The position numbers were made by a program, and so were the translations under genes. The notes under the pieces are model-generated. The model did not search any database, had not been told where the DNA came from, and saw only the letters and a list, made by a program, of their open reading frames with translations. A DNA stretch of 64,000 bases from positions 1 to 64,000 of the forward strand of contig JAFSHA010000094.1 in NCBI GenBank assembly GCA_017440565.1, written 5' to 3'. The stretch comes from Eggerthellaceae bacterium. GTDB lineage: Bacteria; Actinomycetota; Coriobacteriia; Coriobacteriales; Eggerthellaceae. Below are positions 282 to 10,686 of the stretch, one piece after another. Positions within the stretch are counted from its first letter, which is position 1. Every line of letters starts with the position of its first letter.

Positions 282-3077
282 CTAAAGGTCGGATTGGGTT
301 AGTTCTGCGTAGAGCTTGAACAGGTGGGCGACGATTTTCTCCTCGTCGCCGTTGAAGTTCACGCCGTAGGCGGCTTCAACGGCTGCGTCGAGCGCCTTGT
401 GCGCGGAGAGCAGATCGGCGGGCATCTTGTCCGGGTCGTAGAGGTCGGCCAGACTCTTGCCGGGGTGGTTCTCGCGCGCATCGAGCACCGCCTGGGCGCA
501 TTGTTCGATGCGTTCCTTTTGCTCGGGCGTGGGGTTAGGCCAAGGGAATGTGTTGTAAACCATGCCACCTGAGTAGCGATAGTCGCTTTTAAGACGCCCC
601 GCCACGGTGCGCATCCAGGCATTATGCACTTGCGAATGCAGGATGCCGTAGTGGTAGAGGCCCGCATCGGGAATGAGGAACACGAGGTCAGAACAGAAGG
701 TGTCAGAGCCGATGAATCCCAGCGGGATGTAGCGACGGCGTTCGGAGGAGACTTTCGGGATGAGGATGGAGCTGCCCGACGGCATGTTCTCCACGTGAAA
801 ACGCGCGGGCTTCTCGGCTAATTTCCGAGTAGGGGCGCTTTTGCTGGAGAGTCTGAACTGGCGGACTGCCTCGATGCGTTCCCTGCACTTTGGCAAATCG
901 GCAAGCTCCGCTTCGGTTAGGTCGCCGAGCCACAGCACCGAACGCGGTCGGTTGTTGAGGAACTCGTCGGATCCCAGCCAGGTTTTAAAATGCTTTTCAG
1001 ACGCTGGCTCGGCCTTGATGAACGCGTCTTTTTCGTCGCCTTTGAATAGGTAGTATCCTCCGTCGATGGGCTTGTTCCCGATTCCGGTTTTGGGGACGCT
1101 GCAGATCGGCGCATTCCGGTTCCACACGAACACATCGGGTGCGGCCGAAAGGTAGGCGTTGATGTTATCGGGATGCAGCTCGACGGGCTGTGCGTCGGGG
1201 CCTTCGTAGTGGAAGAGGCGATGCGTCCCGTTCAGCGGCCCCAGCTTCGAGAATCCGACGATGACCACAAAGACATGCGCCTGGCCAGTGGCCTCGTTTC
1301 GCCAGCGGAAGGTGTCGTGGGCGAAGTCGATGCGCACGCCGAGGTCGTAGATGGGCGACCATATGTTGGCAACCTGCTCGCCCTGGCAAATGGAGTTCGT
1401 GGAAACGAACGCGCATCGGATGGGGTGCTCCTCGATGTACTCGGCGGCTTTCATGTACCATCCGGCCACGTAGTCGACGTTTCCGCAGTTCTTGGAGCCG
1501 TGGAACACCTCCATGATGTCTTCCTTCTGCTCCTTCGACTGCATGCGCGCGCCGTAGAAAGGCGGGTTGCCGATGATGTAGCTGCACCTTTCAGCGGGCA
1601 GGACGTCGTTCCAATCAATCCGCAGGGCGTTCGCGCACACGCTGTTGGTGATGCTCTTCAGGGGCAGGAAGTCGAAGCGCTGGTAAGGCAGGATCTCCTG
1701 GGTCTTCTCCATCATCTGCTGCTCGGCAATCCACAGCGCCGTCTTGCCGACGCTCACGGCGAAGTCGTTGATCTCGATGGCGTAGAACTGCCCGATGTTC
1801 ACCATGATGGGGCTGTCCACCAGGTCGAAGCTCGTCTGGTCGCCCTGCAGGTTCTCGATGACGCGCAGCTCCAGCTTGCGCAGGCTGATGTAGGTCTCGG
1901 TCAGGAAGTTGTGGGAGCCCGCCGCCGGGTCCAGGAACGTGAGGCTTGCGAGCTTTCGTTGGAAGATGCGCAGCTCGCGTACGCGGTCGCGCTCGGTCTT
2001 GATTCCCTCGATGGTGGCCAGTTCCGCCTTGAGGTCGTCCAGGAACAGCGGGTCGATGACCTTGTGGATGTTCTCGATGGACGTGTAGTGCATGCCGCCC
2101 GAGCGGCGCGTGTCGGGGTTCAGCGTGCTCTCGAACGCCGCGCCGAAGATGGTGGGCGAGATGTCGCGCCAGTCGAAGCCGGCGGACGCCTCGGCCAGAA
2201 GGTCCACCTTGATCTGGTCGGTGAGCTGCGGGATCACGATGTCCTCGTGCGTGAACAGGCCACCGTTGACGTAGGGGAAGGCCGCGAGCTCGGGGTCGAG
2301 GTAGGGGTCGCGCTGGCCTTCCGGCGTGTCGAGCACGTCGAACAGGTCGATGAGCGCGCCGCGCATGCGCGAGGGCGGCACGTTGCGCAGGTAGTCGTAG
2401 AACTGCCCGCGCTTGGCGAGCAGCCCCGCGTCCTCGGCGTACAGCAGGAACACCAGGCGCACGCACAGCACGTTCAGGGAGCGCTGCTCGCGCGGGTCGG
2501 TGTCGATGTTCTGGTACTGCCCGGAAAGCTCGTCGTAGAGGCGGCCCACCAGCTCGCCGGCCTTGACGGACAGGCGCTTCTCCTTCTCGATGCGCGAGTT
2601 GCTCACGTCGGTGAAGAAGCCGAACAGGTAGAGCGCGTCGGGCAGCTCCTCGAGCGCGACGCTGGTGTAGTCGGTGCCGGGGTTTTCCTTGTCGAGGTCG
2701 TGGATGCGGATCTCATCGAAGTTACAGGTGATTATCCAACGCGGGCGGATGGAGTAGGGCAGGTTGTCGGCGTACCAGCGCGCCTGCTGGTAGGGGGTCT
2801 CGGGGCCGGCCTTCTTGCTGCGCTCGTAGCGCTCGTCAAGCGAGCAGCCGCGGCTCTTGTTCTCGATGAGGATATGCATGTCCTCGTAGAACACGTCGAT
2901 CTTGCGGCCCTTCACGCGCCGTTCGAAGTCGAGCACGTAGGTGGCGTTGGGGATGCCCAGCAGCTCCTCGGCGAACTGAATCCAGAACGAGCGCGCCTCG
3001 CGGTCCTCGTTTCCCTCCGCCGCCTTCCAGCGCTCGACGAACGCGCGGGCATTGCGCTTCTGCTCGATAGGATTCAC
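282..3077 (-). CDS. Type IIL (MmeI-like) restriction-modification enzyme
   Basis: 931 residues, close to MmeI (about 920), in one polypeptide. Near the N-terminus D61, then E72-N-K74, form a D-x10-ExK nuclease motif after RRVKGRKIDV, as expected of the MmeI_N endonuclease. A helical linker follows. The adenine-methylase core has motif I as DPAAGSHNFL near residue 381 and motif IV as NPPF near residue 503. The last 350 residues correspond to target recognition and the C-terminal domain. Family knowledge: such enzymes methylate one strand for host protection and cut about 20 bp away, with specificity set by a swappable TRD. Motif I has AAGSHN where CGSGN is usual. A solitary PglX/DrmMI-like methylase is a less likely alternative, because the ExK motif and the size fit MmeI better. 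No separate endonuclease or specificity gene is nearby. Confidence 0.82.
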   Translation of the reverse strand: MNPIEQKRNARAFVERWKAAEGNEDREARSFWIQFAEELLGIPNATYVLDFERRVKGRKIDVFYEDMHILIENKSRGCSLDERYERSKKAGPETPYQQARWYADNLPYSIRPRWIITCNFDEIRIHDLDKENPGTDYTSVALEELPDALYLFGFFTDVSNSRIEKEKRLSVKAGELVGRLYDELSGQYQNIDTDPREQRSLNVLCVRLVFLLYAEDAGLLAKRGQFYDYLRNVPPSRMRGALIDLFDVLDTPEGQRDPYLDPELAAFPYVNGGLFTHEDIVIPQLTDQIKVDLLAEASAGFDWRDISPTIFGAAFESTLNPDTRRSGGMHYTSIENIHKVIDPLFLDDLKAELATIEGIKTERDRVRELRIFQRKLASLTFLDPAAGSHNFLTETYISLRKLELRVIENLQGDQTSFDLVDSPIMVNIGQFYAIEINDFAVSVGKTALWIAEQQMMEKTQEILPYQRFDFLPLKSITNSVCANALRIDWNDVLPAERCSYIIGNPPFYGARMQSKEQKEDIMEVFHGSKNCGNVDYVAGWYMKAAEYIEEHPIRCAFVSTNSICQGEQVANIWSPIYDLGVRIDFAHDTFRWRNEATGQAHVFVVIVGFSKLGPLNGTHRLFHYEGPDAQPVELHPDNINAYLSAAPDVFVWNRNAPICSVPKTGIGNKPIDGGYYLFKGDEKDAFIKAEPASEKHFKTWLGSDEFLNNRPRSVLWLGDLTEAELADLPKCRERIEAVRQFRLSSKSAPTRKLAEKPARFHVENMPSGSSILIPKVSSERRRYIPLGFIGSDTFCSDLVFLIPDAGLYHYGILHSQVHNAWMRTVAGRLKSDYRYSGGMVYNTFPWPNPTPEQKERIEQCAQAVLDARENHPGKSLADLYDPDKMPADLLSAHKALDAAVEAAYGVNFNGDEEKIVAHLFKLYAELTQSDL

Positions 3078-3185: not shown

Positions 3186-3884
3186 CTACGAAGGCGTGCG
3201 CCATTTCTGCGCTTTCAGCCTCGTTCTTGTTTTGTGCCTTGTGTGACTGTCTCGATAAACCTTGAACGGAAGACCTGCTGTTTCTAATTGGTTTTCCATT
3301 ATGGGATCTCTTTTGCCGTAAATCAGTATATAGCTCGGTCGAACGGAGAATACTTTTTCCAGGTAGCGAAGATCGTACGGGTTTTGTATCGGATTGCAGC
3401 CCAAAGTTCCCGATGCGCACATGATGCCAGGGGGAATCGATTTGAAGCAGTCGAGCGTTTCGTTGGAGCCGCATCTTATGTTTTGAATCACCTTGATGCC
3501 GTTCGTGGCTAACACTGCCAAAAACAGCTGGTTGAGAAGCATTATCTCTCGCTGCCATTCGACATCCATGTCCTCGGTAACTGTGAGGTCGGGTCCCACC
3601 ACGCCCATGTACTTCCGATATTCGTCGATCTCGTTGAACACTCTCTCAAACCGAGGGTAAATCCGCTCGTCCCCACAGAAGAAGCAGAGCGCCGCTCTTG
3701 AGATGTCTTTCACGAGGGTAGACTTCCTGTCCTTGTATGTCACCACGTCATCAGGAATCTCGCTGAGATAACAACTTCTAGGGATGATGGGAAACCCTCT
3801 TTCGTCAAACTCGCAGCCTGATTTACGCAGATACGAGTCAAGTGTGTCCACGAGTCTCATGATATCTTCAAGTGTTTGAATCAT
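3186..3884 (-). CDS. DUF4417 family protein
   Basis: 232 residues from the ATG at 3884, which overlaps the stop of the preceding gene by four bases (ATGA), so translation is probably coupled. A longer upstream reading is open but overlaps that gene, and I reject it. The core fits DUF4417: CFFCGDERIYPRFERVFN, a GVVGPDLTVTEDM segment, NGIKVIQNI, then a GTLGCN turn and a final YILIYGK strand. The family is of unknown function and is found mainly in phages, integrated elements and accessory islands. This copy closes a four-gene minus-strand operon of unknown small proteins. Base composition is visibly poorer in G+C than the flanking housekeeping genes, which suggests acquisition. Confidence 0.75.
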   Translation of the reverse strand: MIQTLEDIMRLVDTLDSYLRKSGCEFDERGFPIIPRSCYLSEIPDDVVTYKDRKSTLVKDISRAALCFFCGDERIYPRFERVFNEIDEYRKYMGVVGPDLTVTEDMDVEWQREIMLLNQLFLAVLATNGIKVIQNIRCGSNETLDCFKSIPPGIMCASGTLGCNPIQNPYDLRYLEKVFSVRPSYILIYGKRDPIMENQLETAGLPFKVYRDSHTRHKTRTRLKAQKWRTPS

Positions 3885-4273
3885 GCGGCATGCATTCCTT
3901 CCTCCGGAAGCATAATGCAAATGTGCGTCTCCGCGGGAAGGGCCTTCATCAACGCTTTTATCGCCTGCGCAACGCGTAAGCGATAAAACGAAACATGCAC
4001 TGTTCCGTGCGAGAGTGGTATGTAGTCGAGGCATATTGCGACCTTGTTGCAATCTTTCAGCCGCAAGGCGATTTCTGCGAGGTCCTCTTCTCTTTCTAGG
4101 GCCAGCAGCATCGTTAACTTTATCGACCTTTTGTACTCCAGCAGATCAAATAGGCACTTTTCCGTGGATACGTCCGGGTAGCAGGGGTCGTAGGGGGTGA
4201 TGGGCAGAGTGGCGATTTCCGAAGTCTCCCTTCTGTCCCAGAAGGCCCCGATAAGTTTGTAAGTGCTCTTCAT
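3881..4273 (-). CDS. Hypothetical protein, third gene of DUF4417 cassette
   Basis: 130 residues; I do not recognise the family. It starts with ATG at 4273, immediately after the stop of the upstream gene, and ends in a four-base overlap with the DUF4417 gene. The protein has alternating hydrophobic and charged stretches (LLEYKRSIKLTMLLALERE, then KVAICLDYIPLSHG) that suggest a small alpha/beta fold. There is no signal peptide, membrane segment or Cys cluster. The tight packing argues that it functions with its neighbours, but the sequence gives no activity. Confidence 0.6.
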   Translation of the reverse strand: MKSTYKLIGAFWDRRETSEIATLPITPYDPCYPDVSTEKCLFDLLEYKRSIKLTMLLALEREEDLAEIALRLKDCNKVAICLDYIPLSHGTVHVSFYRLRVAQAIKALMKALPAETHICIMLPEEGMHAA

Positions 4274-4621
4274 CTAAAGCTCCACCACAACGCCCGTGCC
4301 GAGCAGAATGGCGCGATCTGAGAACTCCTTGAGTTTCGTGTACAAAACAGCGAGCCGAGTATCCAGCGTTTGCCCCAGGCGGATTCCGAGCCAGTTGCTC
4401 AAAAGCGCACACTGTGCTTCGTTGAAGTAGTCGACGTCGCCGTTGTCGAGCAATGTTCCGCATAATGCGTTTATGGGATCGATGAAATCTTCGTCGAGCA
4501 AAAGCCAGTCGCTGGGGTCGAGCTCGAACGCCTCCGCCTTTCGACATGTTTCATGAGGAAGCTCGGGGATATGTCCGTAGTAGTCGACGTCGCTCAGATC
4601 GAGTGCCAAAATGAAGACCAT
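4274..4621 (-). CDS. Hypothetical protein, second gene of DUF4417 cassette
   Basis: 115 residues, family not recognised. The gene abuts both neighbours with zero spacing: its ATG at 4621 follows the stop of the 122-aa gene directly, and its stop touches the next ATG. The protein is acidic (DLSDVDYYGHIPEL, then DPSDWLLLDEDFIDP) with a leucine-rich C-terminal half. Small acidic proteins directly downstream of a basic partner are typical of immunity proteins or antitoxins. That role is only an inference here. Confidence 0.6.
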   Translation of the reverse strand: MVFILALDLSDVDYYGHIPELPHETCRKAEAFELDPSDWLLLDEDFIDPINALCGTLLDNGDVDYFNEAQCALLSNWLGIRLGQTLDTRLAVLYTKLKEFSDRAILLGTGVVVEL

Positions 4622-4990
4622 CTACATTCCCTCCCTTCTTAAGACCTTGAAGTGAGTGCTTCGGTTGTCTCCCGGTGATCCGTCGACCTTCACGTAACGC
4701 TTGGCCCGCTTATCCCATATTCTTAAGTAACCCGACGCCATATCTACTTTCACGGTATACTGGATTCCTTCGAATACGAATTTAACGCCCTCTTTTCTTC
4801 CTGAGTCACCTGGTGCGAATCGGTCGCAGATCTCATTGAGGTTGACAGGGTTCTTCTTCCACTCGTCGTTCCACTGAGCTTCTCGTCTTTTGCTGCGATC
4901 GAATCTCGCTTTGTCTCGATCCGATGTCGAAGTCGTGATTTCGACGTAGTACTGGGACGCCTCTGAATAGGCGCTCTTGTAATCAGACAT
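4622..4990 (-). CDS. Hypothetical basic protein, first gene of DUF4417 cassette
   Basis: 122 residues, rich in K and R, not assigned to a family. The first half is helical and charged (DRDKARFDRSKRREAQWNDE). The second half looks like a small beta domain: GVKFVFEGIQYTVKVD, SGYLRIWDKR, ending in STHFKVLRREGM. Short basic beta domains with such tails occur at the C-termini of polymorphic toxins, but I cannot make a confident match. The start at 4990 has AAGGTAAGCGC just upstream, a usable ribosome site. It is the first gene of the operon, so the promoter should lie in 4991-5130, where no strong -35/-10 pair is obvious. Confidence 0.6.
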   Translation of the reverse strand: MSDYKSAYSEASQYYVEITTSTSDRDKARFDRSKRREAQWNDEWKKNPVNLNEICDRFAPGDSGRKEGVKFVFEGIQYTVKVDMASGYLRIWDKRAKRYVKVDGSPGDNRSTHFKVLRREGM

Positions 4991-5171: not shown

Positions 5172-5813
5172 TTAGTTGCGTTTTCTAACTTTTGCCGCCC
5201 CCTTTCCTTTTTCCTGCTCTTCGATGAGGTAATGCAAATCCGGTTCCGAACGTAAAAGATTCAACCAAGCCTTATCGGATTTCGAGGCGGTTGCAACCCG
5301 GGAATATTTTCCGCGTCCTACGCTTTCTAGAACGCCGATGGCGACAAGAGATGCAACCGTAAGCTGTACTTTGTAGGCTGGAACACCGGGCTTTGCGGCC
5401 TGCAGGTCGTTGATGGAGAAGAACTCATCTGAAGAGAGGAGCGGCGATATTGAGGCGCAGATACTCTCTACATCGCCGAAGGGTACGTTTTTCTTGTAGA
5501 GCTCGTCCGTGTCCTCGCCGCGCCGAGCAATTTTTACAAGCTTCTCGTCTCTTATGAAATATGCAGGAAGGCATATCTCGCGATCGTTGGAGGTTGCGTC
5601 GCGCTTGGGATCAGACGCGGAATTCGTCCCGCCACGCAGTGGCTTAAAGCCGCTCGCATCAGAGAGCCTCATGCGTATGGCTTTGATACTTTCGGCGATA
5701 TCAAGCGCTTGGTGCATTGCGTCGAAATCGGCATCAGGGCCGTTGCTGCCAATCTGCGCGAACAGTTCGATCTCTGCCTCCTTCAGATGGGAGATCGTCT
5801 TTGCGTAATCCAT
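5172..5813 (-). CDS. Hypothetical protein with winged-helix-like C-terminal half
   Basis: 213 residues from the ATG at 5813, which has GGAG five bases upstream. An ATG at 5831 and a TTG at 5852 are in frame but lack a ribosome site. The first 45 residues are helical (KTISHLKEAEIELFAQIG, then HQALDIAESIKAIRMRL). The middle is variable. Residues about 125-175 (FFSINDLQAAKPG, VQLTVASLVAIGVLESVGRGKYS) have the helix-helix-wing pattern of a winged-helix domain. No named family is recognised. A perfect 15-bp palindrome lies 39 bp upstream over the likely -10, so the gene may be regulated by a dimeric repressor, perhaps itself. Confidence 0.6.
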   Translation of the reverse strand: MDYAKTISHLKEAEIELFAQIGSNGPDADFDAMHQALDIAESIKAIRMRLSDASGFKPLRGGTNSASDPKRDATSNDREICLPAYFIRDEKLVKIARRGEDTDELYKKNVPFGDVESICASISPLLSSDEFFSINDLQAAKPGVPAYKVQLTVASLVAIGVLESVGRGKYSRVATASKSDKAWLNLLRSEPDLHYLIEEQEKGKGAAKVRKRN

Positions 5814-5851
5814 TGCCGCTCCATTGTCCATCGTCTGTGTCTGCGATTGCA

Positions 5852-5866
5852 ATTATACAGTATAAT
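5852..5866 (-). promoter_or_regulatory. Palindromic -10/operator ATTATAC-A-GTATAAT
   Basis: A perfect odd palindrome, ATTATACAGTATAAT, sits just upstream of the 213-aa gene. Read on the minus strand it contains TATACT, a good -10 hexamer, so a bound dimer would block the promoter. The inner TATACAGTATA is identical to that of the RelB/PIN promoter at 34448-34462. Confidence 0.55.
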
Positions 5867-6001: not shown

Positions 6002-7285
6002 TTAGGCCGTCAGGCAGGTAATGGGCAGGACGAGAACGCCGTCTTCCCGCCTTGCGGCAAAGCCGCCCGGAATGATGACGGCGCAGAATGCGGGTGCGCC
6101 CATGACGGCGGTGTCAATCGTGGATGCCAGACGCTTCAGGCTCTCCGCGCCCTCCTCGACGAAGGACGCCCCTAGCTTCATTTCGAAGAGCGCGTAGCGA
6201 CCGTCGCGCAGTTGAACGACGGCGTCCGCCTCGCGTCCCGCCTCGTCGTGATAATGGAGAACCTCTCCGCCGAGGGCCTGCGCGTAGACCCTCAAATCGC
6301 GAACGCAAAGCGACTCGAAAAGCAGCCCCATGGTGGACGTGTCCATGAGCAGGGAGTGCGGGCTTGCTCCAAGCGCGGCGGCGGCGATGGACGGGCAGGT
6401 AAAATGCCTCGTCGGAGTTTTGGCGATCCTCGATTTCGCATGGAGCGACGGCGCCCACGCCGAAAGCTCCTGAATGACGTAGAGTCTTCTCAGCGCTGCG
6501 AGGTAGCCGTTGACCGTCTCTTTCGATAGGTCGATGTCGCGCGCTTTAAGGTCCTTGATGACGGTCGACTGGGTTGCCTGCGACGAGGTGAGGCGTGCGT
6601 ACTCTCTCATGATGAGGCGTGCGTATTGGGGATTTCGAGAAACGCCGTCAACGCGGGAGATGTCTTGCTCGGCGATGGTTGTGACGTAGTCGTAGGCCAT
6701 CTCCAGAGAGTCTTCGGGCGATAGCGTGGTCACCGCGCGCGGCCATCCGCCTCGGCAGATGAGGTGCGACATGAGCTCGATGTCGCAACTGGAATAGCCG
6801 ACGGGATCGACTGCTCCGTCGAAGAGGGCGGCTAGCGAAACCTCGCAGGTTGAGTCTCGTGATTCTGCGAGGGCCATCGGCGCCATATCCACCGAGACGA
6901 TTCGTCCTGCGCCGGAGTGGGAGGGGGGTGTTGTCGGAGTCGAGGAACCCGTGAGCATGAAGCGACCAGGCTGCGATTCGCCGTCGACGGCGAATCGAAC
7001 GGCGTCCCATAGCTGAGGTGCTTCCTGCCACTCGTCGATGAGCCGCGGGGCGGAGCCCCTGAGAAGCAGGGACGGTTTCGTTTCAGCGAGGAGTCGGTAG
7101 TCGTTTCGCTTGTCGGGATCTTGCATCATAAGAGAGCTCGCTGCGATTTGAAGGGCGGACTGCGTCTTTCCGCACCATTTCGGCCCTCGAATCTCGACGG
7201 CGCCCGCATAGCCGAGCTTGCGTCGGATTGTCGCATCGATGAATCGAGGAAGGTACTTTTCCTCGCTGAGTTTTGCGCTAGGCAT
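6002..7285 (-). CDS. AAA-type ATPase with DUF4143 domain
   Basis: 427 residues from the ATG at 7285, chosen because AGGAG lies eight bases upstream; an earlier ATG at 7309 lacks this. The N-terminal ATPase has a family-typical P-loop, GPKWCGKT, at residues 34-41, and a Walker-B-like PRLIDEWQEAP segment. A sensor-like LTGSSTPT follows. The C-terminal DUF4143 part includes GLLFESLCVRDLRVYAQALG and a nuclease-fold-like EADAVVQLRDGRYALFEMK. Such proteins are widespread in anaerobes, commonly in accessory regions, and their function is unknown. The last motif resembles the D-x(n)-ExK strand pair of PD-(D/E)XK folds. Transcription probably starts inside the repeat array at 7308-7393. Confidence 0.85.
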   Translation of the reverse strand: MPSAKLSEEKYLPRFIDATIRRKLGYAGAVEIRGPKWCGKTQSALQIAASSLMMQDPDKRNDYRLLAETKPSLLLRGSAPRLIDEWQEAPQLWDAVRFAVDGESQPGRFMLTGSSTPTTPPSHSGAGRIVSVDMAPMALAESRDSTCEVSLAALFDGAVDPVGYSSCDIELMSHLICRGGWPRAVTTLSPEDSLEMAYDYVTTIAEQDISRVDGVSRNPQYARLIMREYARLTSSQATQSTVIKDLKARDIDLSKETVNGYLAALRRLYVIQELSAWAPSLHAKSRIAKTPTRHFTCPSIAAAALGASPHSLLMDTSTMGLLFESLCVRDLRVYAQALGGEVLHYHDEAGREADAVVQLRDGRYALFEMKLGASFVEEGAESLKRLASTIDTAVMGAPAFCAVIIPGGFAARREDGVLVLPITCLTA

Positions 7286-7307
7286 CTGAACTGCTCCTAT
7301 TTGGTCC

Positions 7308-7393
7308 AACCGTCCGATTACGGAAATTATAACCGTCCGATTGCGGAAATTCTAGCCATCCGATTGTGGGAATATTTACCGTCCGTTTTCGGA
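7308..7393 (-). repeat. Four 23-bp direct repeats carrying TCCG-N4-CGGA sites
   Basis: Units begin at 7308, 7331, 7354 and 7377 (period exactly 23 bp). Units 1, 2 and 4 each contain the inverted repeat TCCG-N4-CGGA (TCCGATTACGGA, TCCGATTGCGGA, TCCGTTTTCGGA); unit 3 is degenerate. The array lies directly upstream of the DUF4143 ATPase. Its minus strand reads GGTTATAATTTCC between units 1 and 2, giving a TATAAT -10. Two-helical-turn spacing suggests cooperative protein binding. Confidence 0.7.
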
Positions 7394-8698: not shown

Positions 8699-10453
8699 CT
8701 ACTTAGCTCTTGTGAGCACATCGTCTTCCTCGGAGACCGGAATGGCCATGTTTTCCAGCGCGTCTCGCAGCTGCGGGTTGTGGATGACGAAGTGTATGGC
8801 CGGAGCCTTGCTCTTGGAAATGAGCACCCAATTCCCCTCGTGGATATGGATCTGTATGTTGCGGAAAGGATAGGCTCTGTTCTTTTTCACCGTGTAATTT
8901 TCGTGGTTAGCGCAATAGTTTTCGATTAGGGCCAGGTGCTCCTGATACTCCTCATAGCTGTAGGCGACATCCTTTTCCATGAACAGTTTCGCAAGCGGCA
9001 AATACATGGGATGCTGATGGAATTCCTCTCGCTCCATCACGGGAATCTCCTCCGTGAGAGCATCCCGTGCCAGCAGCGTTTCGTACTTCAGACGCTGTCG
9101 TGATACGAATTCGGTGATTTCCGTTTTTTCCTCTGCCGTCACGTCGTTGTGCGCCAGGATTCTTTCCAGAAGATCGTCGGTAAGGGTATGGATCGGCAGG
9201 GCGGAAAGGATGGATCTGCGCGTTCCAGGTGCAGAATCATGTTTCTCCATAAAAGCACGAAACGCCCCTGCCTGTTCCGCGCGGTAGATGTCCATGAGCG
9301 GCAGCGCCTTGGACAAAAGATCCTTTGCCCGCTGACGGTAATAGGCTACTTCTTCTTTGTTGTTGGTCAGATACATTTTGCCGTTCTCGTGGTGCCCTAT
9401 GATGCACTCTCCGGAGAGGGCGGCGGCGCCGCTGGAATAAATGAAATGCCCGAAGAGCTTGTTGTGCGTTCCGCTCAGATAATAGGGCGATATCTGGCCC
9501 GTCATGTACATGGGGATCCAGCCTTCCAACCCCATCATCATCTCTTCGAAGGGACGGTTGATGTTGTGGATGAAGTGGATGCGCAGGCCCTTTTTCAGCA
9601 TGAGCGCGACGCCGAAAATATACTTTTTCATGAAGTCTGTTCCCGCCGCCTTGTCGGCCATGGGCGTGTCGTCGTTGGCGATGAAATCCTCCATGGATTT
9701 GGACAGCACGGTCGCTTTGAAAAAGTCCAGCGTGCCCTTGCGCATTGCTTCGATCCCGTAATAGTTCTTGGAAGTCGGCAGTTGGAAAGGCGTGGTGGGC
9801 ACCTTCAGCTCGTCAAAGTGAATGCTGCGGATAAACTCATTGAGGTCAAATTCATCCAACTTGGTCAGAAACGGGACCGTGACGCTCTCTTTTTCCGCAG
9901 CCTCGCTTGCAAGCCAGCCGACCAGGTGCTTTATGCAGCTGTCCTTGTCGCGTAGTTCCTCTGCGGGGACACCTAGCAAACCCGCAAGCGTTTCCTCATC
10001 GGAAGGCGTTAGATGGGTAGCCACGAATTTCGCGACATCTGCGGAAAAGCGGATGGGATCGGCGGGCTTTCTCTGCCCGTTTCGGATGCGGGAGATGTAG
10101 GAGCTGTCAAAGTTCAGTGCGTGGGCAAGGTCGGCAACGTTTACGGAAAGGCGGGAGAGCAGTGTATCAAGGTTTTTCTGAAATTGCTCAAAGGGGAATG
10201 CCTGATCGGTCAGAACCTGCTGCAGTTTATTCCGGATAGCATCCTTCGTCAGACCTGTAATGTGCTTTTTCTCCGCCAGCAAGCAGATGCCGTTCACTAG
10301 CCCCTCAAGCTGCGCGCTTCCTACTTCGGGCGTACGAATGCCGCTGCGGTATCTGCTGATGACAGATTCGGAAAGCCCCGATGCTTCGGCGAGTTCTTTC
10401 GCGCTGCATTCCAGCGCAGAAATGTATTCGTTCAGTTGTTCATTGAAAGTCAT
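8699..10453 (-). CDS. Large XRE-type regulator with two HTH domains
   Basis: 584 residues from the ATG at 10453, preceded by GGAG at nine bases; a longer frame to 10567 has no ribosome site. Two Cro/C1-type HTHs are visible: residues about 15-42 (AKELAEASGLSESVISRYRS) and 104-130 (NVADLAHALNFDSSYISRIR), each with the usual RxP-like end. The remaining 400 residues are soluble and I cannot name them. They look like an all-helical/ligand-sensing part with many aromatic and His residues (RIHFIHNINRPFEEMMMG). The gene diverges from the SLH surface protein across 230 bp that hold a perfect 9+9 palindrome. I infer that it controls itself and that protein. Confidence 0.7.
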   Translation of the reverse strand: MTFNEQLNEYISALECSAKELAEASGLSESVISRYRSGIRTPEVGSAQLEGLVNGICLLAEKKHITGLTKDAIRNKLQQVLTDQAFPFEQFQKNLDTLLSRLSVNVADLAHALNFDSSYISRIRNGQRKPADPIRFSADVAKFVATHLTPSDEETLAGLLGVPAEELRDKDSCIKHLVGWLASEAAEKESVTVPFLTKLDEFDLNEFIRSIHFDELKVPTTPFQLPTSKNYYGIEAMRKGTLDFFKATVLSKSMEDFIANDDTPMADKAAGTDFMKKYIFGVALMLKKGLRIHFIHNINRPFEEMMMGLEGWIPMYMTGQISPYYLSGTHNKLFGHFIYSSGAAALSGECIIGHHENGKMYLTNNKEEVAYYRQRAKDLLSKALPLMDIYRAEQAGAFRAFMEKHDSAPGTRRSILSALPIHTLTDDLLERILAHNDVTAEEKTEITEFVSRQRLKYETLLARDALTEEIPVMEREEFHQHPMYLPLAKLFMEKDVAYSYEEYQEHLALIENYCANHENYTVKKNRAYPFRNIQIHIHEGNWVLISKSKAPAIHFVIHNPQLRDALENMAIPVSEEDDVLTRAK

Positions 10454-10519
10454 CGTCGCTGTTCTCCATTCCCGCACACGGACAGAACACTTCATTTCAA
10501 TTACATCGCATGTTGCCAC

Positions 10520-10541
10520 TTGCGGAAATAAGTTTCCGCAA
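10520..10541. promoter_or_regulatory. Palindromic operator TTGCGGAAA-N4-TTTCCGCAA
   Basis: A perfect 9-bp inverted repeat with a TAAG spacer lies in the divergent region between the XRE regulator and the SLH protein. A TTGACA (-35-like, plus strand) follows at 10548-10553, although no good -10 is spaced 16-18 bp from it. Confidence 0.55.
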
Positions 10542-10686
10542 AAGTCATTGACATTTCTGGCAATCATGTTGTTGCGTCAGATTCGCATAGTTAAATGGAT
10601 GTGTATGTGCAAATTGATTTTCGGCAAAACGGTGATAAAGCGAAAACATCTCTGGTTTACGTTCTGAGACCAAACGGAAGAAGGCG

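Follow-up and report, generated by a model that had tools for sequence, protein, structure and literature searches.

The 64,000-nucleotide window analyzed here, which opens contig JAFSHA010000094.1 of an Eggerthellaceae genome (GCA_017440565.1), carries near its start a compact cassette of four genes, g1 to g4, the last of which encodes a protein of the family DUF4417. Our reading, to which we give a probability of about 0.7, is that this cassette is a mobile toxin-immunity locus and a novel form of polymorphic-toxin and toxin-antitoxin biology. By homology, the g1 product corresponds to the C-terminal toxin domain of polymorphic toxins minus its delivery module. The g2 product would bind and neutralize it, as position, charge, and co-inheritance suggest, and g3 together with DUF4417 would probably keep these two products together in a controlled complex. 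DUF4417 is the most interesting part of the locus; it has no assigned function, and now that it is linked to exchangeable toxin-immunity pairs, its role can be put to a direct test.

A four-gene unit that recurs across genomes

An earlier note, made from the letters of the window, had described four minus-strand genes of 122, 115, 130, and 232 amino acids with spacings of 0, 0, and -4 bp (g1/g2, g2/g3, and g3/g4) and DUF4417 last, all of which we confirmed; the ATG start of g4 lies within a longer open frame of 288 amino acids. The g4 product belongs to DUF4417 (PF14386; 57.4 bits, E 1.7e-15, with a Pfam cut-off of 28.9); searches of Pfam, NCBIfam, PHROGs, and PADLOC gave nothing credible for g1, g2, or g3. 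The first protein is basic and the second acidic, as had been noticed, with net charges (K+R-D-E) of +6 versus -14. The low G+C content (GC) attributed to the cassette held in part: at 0.49 to 0.53 it lies below the adjoining genes for an MmeI-type enzyme (0.57 to 0.68) and a DUF4143 ATPase (0.61 to 0.64), but it is not unique, as a 226-amino-acid neighbor and the 8.5- to 12-kb part of the window (0.48 to 0.56) are similarly AT-rich.

The arrangement goes beyond chance because these four families are found side by side repeatedly, in many genomes, so the possibility raised earlier that these genes never co-occur elsewhere can be set aside. Taking two contig-end pieces from one genome as one, there are 26 loci in 22 genomes of Coriobacteriia, Bifidobacteriaceae, a Clostridiales metagenome-assembled genome (MAG), and an uncultured lineage. 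Gene order is conserved in two main forms, g1-g2-g3-g4 and g4-g1-g2-g3, with a third, disturbed order in locus L052. A hidden Markov model (HMM) tally over 26 stretches covers 27 cassettes, as L052 contributes two and the contig-end pieces L055 and L056 count as one each; by this count g2 accompanies g1 in 25 of 27 (the exceptions being L056, at a contig end, and L068, with a 131-amino-acid open reading frame [ORF] in that place), DUF4417 is present in 25 (not in L056 or L066), and g3 is present in 23. Tandem duplication of g1-g2 is seen in L059 and L062, and fusions join g3 to g4 in a Slackia MAG and g2 to g4 in L058 and L060. Co-occurrence and fusion make g3 and DUF4417 part of one unit with g1 and g2. 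Pairwise distances of the four proteins also correlate (r 0.74 to 0.91 over 16 to 17 loci chosen for open frames, 0 of 5,000 permutations; r 0.91 for g1-g2 over 17 loci), a comparison made without correction for host relatedness.

The unit is patchily distributed. Within the window's family, g1 was found in 2 of 138 genomes, the window's own and one more at 52% identity, whose locus has all four genes, g3 and g4 sharing a single frame. Searching 396 genomes of the class contributed a third cassette: five matches at E <= 0.01 comprised the three cassettes, one MuF-like fragment, and one chance match, and a repeat with a wider profile gave nothing beyond these four places. Two short peptide patterns, applied to 84,980 species with a single genome each, located five loci (Bifidobacterium vansinderenii, a Slackia MAG, the Clostridiales MAG, Atopobium deltae, and an uncultured bacterium). 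Judging by kinship labels, the window organism is probably close to Slackia and Atopobium. Searching by profile, we next obtained matches in 15 of 189 genomes of Bifidobacteriaceae, the family of the Bifidobacterium locus. The order to which the uncultured bacterium belongs gave 4 of 161, of which three were convincing and one was judged chance, and the class that includes the Clostridiales MAG gave 5 of 391, of which only the seed was convincing. Weak g1 matches include L022, L023, and L024 (E 0.004 to 0.008), and those at L047 (phosphatase-like), L048 (PriA-like helicase), and L007 (glycosyltransferase cluster) were judged chance on inspection of the loci. Window g1 is about as close to its Bifidobacterium (53% identity) and Clostridiales MAG (48%) relatives as to those of its own family (50 to 52%), and the unit therefore moves horizontally. 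The four-gene cassette is a real, horizontally mobile unit.

The g1 toxin domain and its small acidic partner

Homology identifies g1 as a stand-alone form of a polymorphic-toxin C-terminal domain. When g1 of cassette L014, a more distant query than window g1, was compared with 72,556 plasmids by tblastn, two matches were returned, both at the C terminus of a protein: a Moraxella bovis hemagglutinin-repeat (CdiA-like) protein (E 5e-17) and a Psychrobacter DUF4150 (PAAR-like) protein (E 0.06). Only the L014 query reached these plasmid-borne toxins; window g1 had no match among plasmids. Alignment by hhalign confirmed both at 97% probability, with E 3.8e-11 from six cassette rows alone and E 3.5e-11 from a 23-row profile. 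Pfam recognizes Tox-PAAR-like in the Psychrobacter protein and no domain over the g1-matching part of either toxin; the g1 domain is new to Pfam and NCBIfam. A further g1-like end (E 1.1e-8) closes a protein fragment in Coriobacteriia genome G315 (L046). The first 26 residues of this fragment match the region of a portal gene and the next gene in a Curtobacterium phage, and we call it only MuF-like because its match to phages is limited to those residues (MuF toxins are described in PMC5576092); a pattern search of viral contigs found no match to it. The domain thus sits at the C terminus of hosts with unrelated N-terminal delivery parts and would be a new toxin domain common to contact-dependent-inhibition-type, PAAR-type, and MuF-like proteins and to chromosomal cassettes. 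No delivery or trafficking domain from Pfam, NCBIfam, or PHROG is present in the 122 residues of g1, and it is therefore classed as a stand-alone relative rather than a full polymorphic toxin.

The toxin-immunity order suggested in the earlier note draws its support from these homologs. A small acidic ORF directly follows the toxin domain in both Moraxella, where its first 69 residues precede the end of the record, and Psychrobacter, and an acidic gene of 118 amino acids follows the MuF-like fragment and is touched by the g2 HMM at E 3.5e-4. Three cassettes have a damaged g1 with an open g2: L061 lacks the N-terminal part, L066 has the core deleted, and the second L062 copy is truncated. In L052, g1 is an open frame without a standard start, and g2 is open. 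No damaged g2 was seen except in L068, where none was recognized, and at contig ends, in a survey that did not check g2 frames systematically. Damage to g1 with g2 intact fits a toxin and its immunity protein, although the numbers are small.

Across 23 aligned rows of g1, W44, P60, K70, D83, and H113 are invariant, and R90 and T112 are nearly so. The AlphaFold2 model built from six sequences (mean predicted local distance difference test [pLDDT] score, 89.9) has three helices and an antiparallel sheet. BECR-fold RNases, such as barnase, EndoU, colicins E5 and D, and RelE, share a helical N terminus and an antiparallel sheet. The likely activity of g1 would be nucleic acid cleavage, with K70, D83, R90, and H113 at the active site. 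The best fold match in the PDB is polymorphic toxin PT7 (8owu_C; Z 4.2, root mean square deviation [rmsd] 3.0, 63 aligned residues), tied with unrelated entries. The sole profile match of g1 in PDB sequences, a designed repeat protein, was rejected for its short, scattered matches, and the profile matches of g2 there were chance entries.

We regard g2 as the probable immunity protein on the strength of its position, charge, and co-inheritance with g1. On Psychrobacter plasmid p3, the gene in the immunity position belongs to the family DMP12 (PF16779, E 5.4e-19; phmmer to 3w1o, E 6.4e-19), a "DNA mimic" family reported to bind HU (PMC5722371); members of this family may be immunity proteins. 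Like DMP12, g2 is small and acidic, but the two have no convincing sequence relation: g2 has no Pfam match to PF16779, and hhalign gives a probability below 1%. Run on a small set of ORFs, the g2 HMM reaches the Psychrobacter DMP12 gene with E 7.5e-4.

Set against known systems, the cassette resembles polymorphic toxins of the CdiA, PAAR-linked, and MuF types in the homology of g1 to their C-terminal toxin domain and in the small acidic gene directly downstream. It differs from them in that g1 is on its own, lacks a trafficking domain, and comes with g3, DUF4417, and usually a pair of regulatory genes, XRE and ImmA/IrrE. With type II toxin-antitoxin modules it shares small adjacent genes, a basic putative toxin, an acidic putative antidote, and a patchy, mobile distribution, but it has four conserved genes instead of two, the toxin gene comes first, and no DNA-binding domain is recognized in g2 by Pfam or NCBIfam.

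DUF4417 beside other toxin-immunity pairs

In Coriobacteriia, DUF4417 is linked to various toxin-immunity pairs. The family occurs in 34 of 286 genomes of the class, three of which (G000, G106, and G310) carry a g1 cassette. The search gave 45 places and 30 loci; the 29 new ones (L075 to L103) were inspected, and 25 were tested after exclusion of L101 and L103, which are of the g1 type, and of L090 and L102, which are cut by contig ends. At 23 of the 25, an ORF of 100 to 225 amino acids starts between -15 and +13 bp from the DUF4417 stop, and 20 of these 23 ORFs have a Gly-rich leader by a simple pattern. L081, scored as lacking such an ORF, nonetheless has a Gly-led ORF of 126 amino acids at -1, and L091, scored likewise, has one on the other side of DUF4417. 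Among controls, a downstream ORF of this kind follows 3 of 38 genes in the window and 18 of 103 in L049 to L068, an unfiltered set that included cassette genes, and none is Gly-led.

The protein downstream of DUF4417 has a positive net charge at 22 of the 24 loci with a candidate. Of 18 such proteins scanned, 12 have no Pfam domain above cut-off and 6 do: LHH nuclease (L075, L077, and L099), Ntox50, that is, bacterial toxin 50 (L082), and DUF6883 (L096 and L100). A further ORF follows at 18 of 22 located loci by the rule of our script, 15 times with negative charge, and the one scanned is SUKH_5 (E 7.2e-35), of what we take to be a known immunity superfamily. Two further loci, L073 (MT835546.1) and L074 (MT837061.1), have the order XRE, ImmA/IrrE, DUF4417, Gly-led protein, small protein; no other phage record matches the Gly-led protein of L073. 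Both are fecal scaffolds deposited as phage that by eye look like bacterial chromosome, with genes for phosphate transport and a DNA polymerase III subunit.

These loci and the window cassette share the Pfam family and the placement of DUF4417 beside a small toxin-like gene and an acidic one. Where they have a Gly-led protein, the window cassette has g1 and g2; it also carries g3 and places DUF4417 last rather than before the toxin. DUF4417 looks like the invariable element of a broader modular class; in Coriobacteriia, different toxin-immunity pairs come directly after it. As proposed, the class would comprise a regulator, DUF4417, a small toxin that can be exchanged and that often bears the shared Gly-rich leader, and an immunity gene. 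That short modular toxins of this kind form a class of bacteria and phages not yet described, with the window cassette as one type of cargo and a death switch beside restriction-modification (R-M) or bacteriophage exclusion (BREX) genes, we put at an even chance.

The model of the window DUF4417 protein (pLDDT 86) is TIM-barrel-like, with a best Z of 7.3 and an rmsd of 5.0 over 184 residues. This best match is tied with many unrelated barrels, and no function follows from the model; tRNA-guanine transglycosylase is one of the tied top PDB entries. The protein also matches PHROG 940, annotated as a nuclease (E 7.9e-10). According to the DUF4417 passage of PMC12704722, the phage proteins are often fused to ParB-CTPase folds, and according to that of PMC8066415, a gene of about 137 amino acids in a Streptococcus pyogenes phage overlaps the end of DUF4417, and in one phage DUF4417 lies two genes before the terminase genes. 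These passages make no mention of toxins, and since the subscription literature was mostly outside our search, absence from print is not established.

Neighboring genes, regulation, and alternative readings

By eye, an XRE gene and an ImmA/IrrE-like gene adjoin most cassettes, and all six ImmA/IrrE-like peptidase genes scanned match Peptidase_M78, five of them above cut-off. In ImmA/IrrE systems, the protease cleaves a repressor and so frees expression; by analogy, the ImmA/IrrE-type protease of the window's relatives would cleave a repressor upon stress or infection and release expression of the cassette. A second group (L057, L063, L064, L065, and, less clearly, the second L052 copy) has in place of the pair another upstream protein of about 134 to 145 amino acids, which also precedes the DUF4417 gene in L100. 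It has no Pfam match in the one protein scanned and is possibly an alternative regulator where the pair is missing.

Cassettes are commoner near R-M and BREX genes than expected by chance. The 22 cassette genomes hold 54 N6_Mtase genes; one lies within 10 kb at 5 of 26 cassette loci versus 0.48 expected (P 9e-5, with genome sizes rounded) and within 5 kb at 4 loci versus 0.27 expected (P 1.3e-4). L057 and L063 have the same arrangement, which may reflect a single event. We give about even odds to the use that this setting suggests, self-intoxication of infected cells beside R-M or BREX systems, that is, abortive infection, which would mean that weapons of competition are reused inside defense islands. 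Of the defense or conflict module proposed earlier, the conflict part is supported, and phage defense is plausible from the R-M/BREX neighborhood.

Several points weigh against our reading. At about 16 of the 26 cassette loci, the stretches read contain no R-M or BREX gene, and neither an XRE nor an M78-type peptidase gene appears beside the window cassette in the ORF list or Pfam. Pfam, NCBIfam, and hhalign against DMP12 place g2 in no recognized immunity family, and fold searches with g1 in the PDB and BFVD gave nothing decisive. The distance correlations carry no correction for host relatedness. Toxicity of g1, its neutralization by g2, and protection from phage are putative, drawn from sequence.

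The same neighborhood admits another reading, that the cassette monitors the adjoining R-M or BREX system and, once this is inhibited or lost, kills the cell in the manner of PrrC in EcoprrI. PrrC joins a nucleoside triphosphatase (NTPase) domain to an anticodon-nuclease part. It is described as lying inside a type IC locus and becoming active upon inhibition of the enzyme (PMC12707154). The likeness lies in the proposed killing effector and in placement: in L057 and L063 the cassette sits between the hsdS/hsdM side and hsdR (both hsdM genes and L057 hsdR called by PADLOC, hsdS and L063 hsdR by eye), in L061 it lies between the BrxC and PglX genes, all on one strand, and an MmeI or MmeI-like enzyme adjoins the cassettes of the window and L067. 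We nevertheless think such a guard unlikely: Pfam finds no PrrC-like NTPase domain in g1 to g4, the neighboring systems vary in type and many cassettes have none nearby, and L057 and L063 perhaps count once. The window cassette lies beside, not inside, its type IIL enzyme. An addiction module, which would maintain itself or its island with no antiphage benefit, would account for the patchy, mobile distribution in the window's family and in Bifidobacteriaceae and for damage to g1 while g2 is retained. It is a doubtful explanation, given that two-component addiction needs no g3, DUF4417, or protease-linked regulator and that the enrichment near R-M and BREX genes speaks against it.

Export or phage delivery would make g1 a short antibacterial effector traveling by an unknown route, with g2 protecting the producer and DUF4417 acting as an adaptor or packaging factor. 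The presence of the g1 domain in exported CdiA-like and PAAR-like proteins, the ParB-CTPase fusions and terminase neighbors of phage DUF4417 (PMC12704722 and PMC8066415), and the common Gly-rich leader of other DUF4417-linked small proteins all point that way. We find it quite unlikely, as no secretion or delivery gene adjoins the window cassette, g1 has no recognizable delivery domain, and the cassettes are chromosomal, beside R-M genes and under XRE/ImmA-type regulators. The prophage origin that the earlier note had also considered, with the four genes serving in structure or packaging, we reject as highly improbable: although DUF4417 occurs in phages and the window protein matches PHROG 940, neither g1 nor g2 has a match in 50,697 phage records, viral contigs searched by DUF4417 alone and by the g1 alignment hold no relatives, and the neighbors are R-M, BREX, and ordinary chromosomal genes.

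Around the window cassette (Table 1), the type IIL enzyme and the DUF4143 ATPase do flank it, as had been stated, with the correction that an extra gene stands before the ATPase gene. This gene of 226 amino acids, as AT-rich as the cassette and seen at no other cassette, may be a regulator replacing the XRE and ImmA/IrrE pair of the relatives; its membership in the unit is uncertain. The rest of the window reads by eye as chromosome, and the contig starts at window base 1.

Table 1. Coordinates of the cassette genes, their neighbors, and related features at other loci
Feature	Location	Strand	Description
g1	4622..4990	-	Stand-alone polymorphic-toxin domain, putative toxin
g2	4274..4621	-	Putative immunity protein
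g3	3881..4273	-	Accessory protein, unit member
g4	3186..3884	-	DUF4417 protein; model TIM-barrel-like; would be the component that stays constant in a modular toxin-immunity system
MmeI-type (type IIL) R-M enzyme	282..3077	-	Full length; MmeI domains in Pfam; PADLOC REase_MTase_IIG, 1104 bits
226-amino-acid gene, upstream of cassette	5172..5852	-	Weak AbiEi-like match below cut-off (Pfam E 0.0078, PADLOC E 0.017)
DUF4143/AAA_14 ATPase	6002..7309	-	Pfam
Upstream family of 134 to 145 amino acids	L057:3716-4132, L063:6299-6703, L064:3737-4141, L065:6325-6762, L100:829-1239		Possible alternative regulator
PAAR-like toxin and DMP12-family gene, Psychrobacter plasmid p3	L070:1512-2878		Toxin ends in g1 domain; DMP12-family gene directly follows in immunity position
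R-M/BREX neighbors			Window, MmeI; L014, Dcm-type; L051, HsdS; L054, HsdM; L057, HsdR and HsdM; L061, PglX and BrxC; L063, HsdM; L067, MmeI-like; L068, type II methyltransferase

A DUF4143/AAA_14 ATPase gene lies one gene from the cassette in two unrelated genomes, those of the window and of L061 (6054-7280). Another AT-rich stretch of the window, a few kilobases from the cassette, encodes a protein of 622 amino acids (8699-10567) with an N terminus that is XRE-like by eye.

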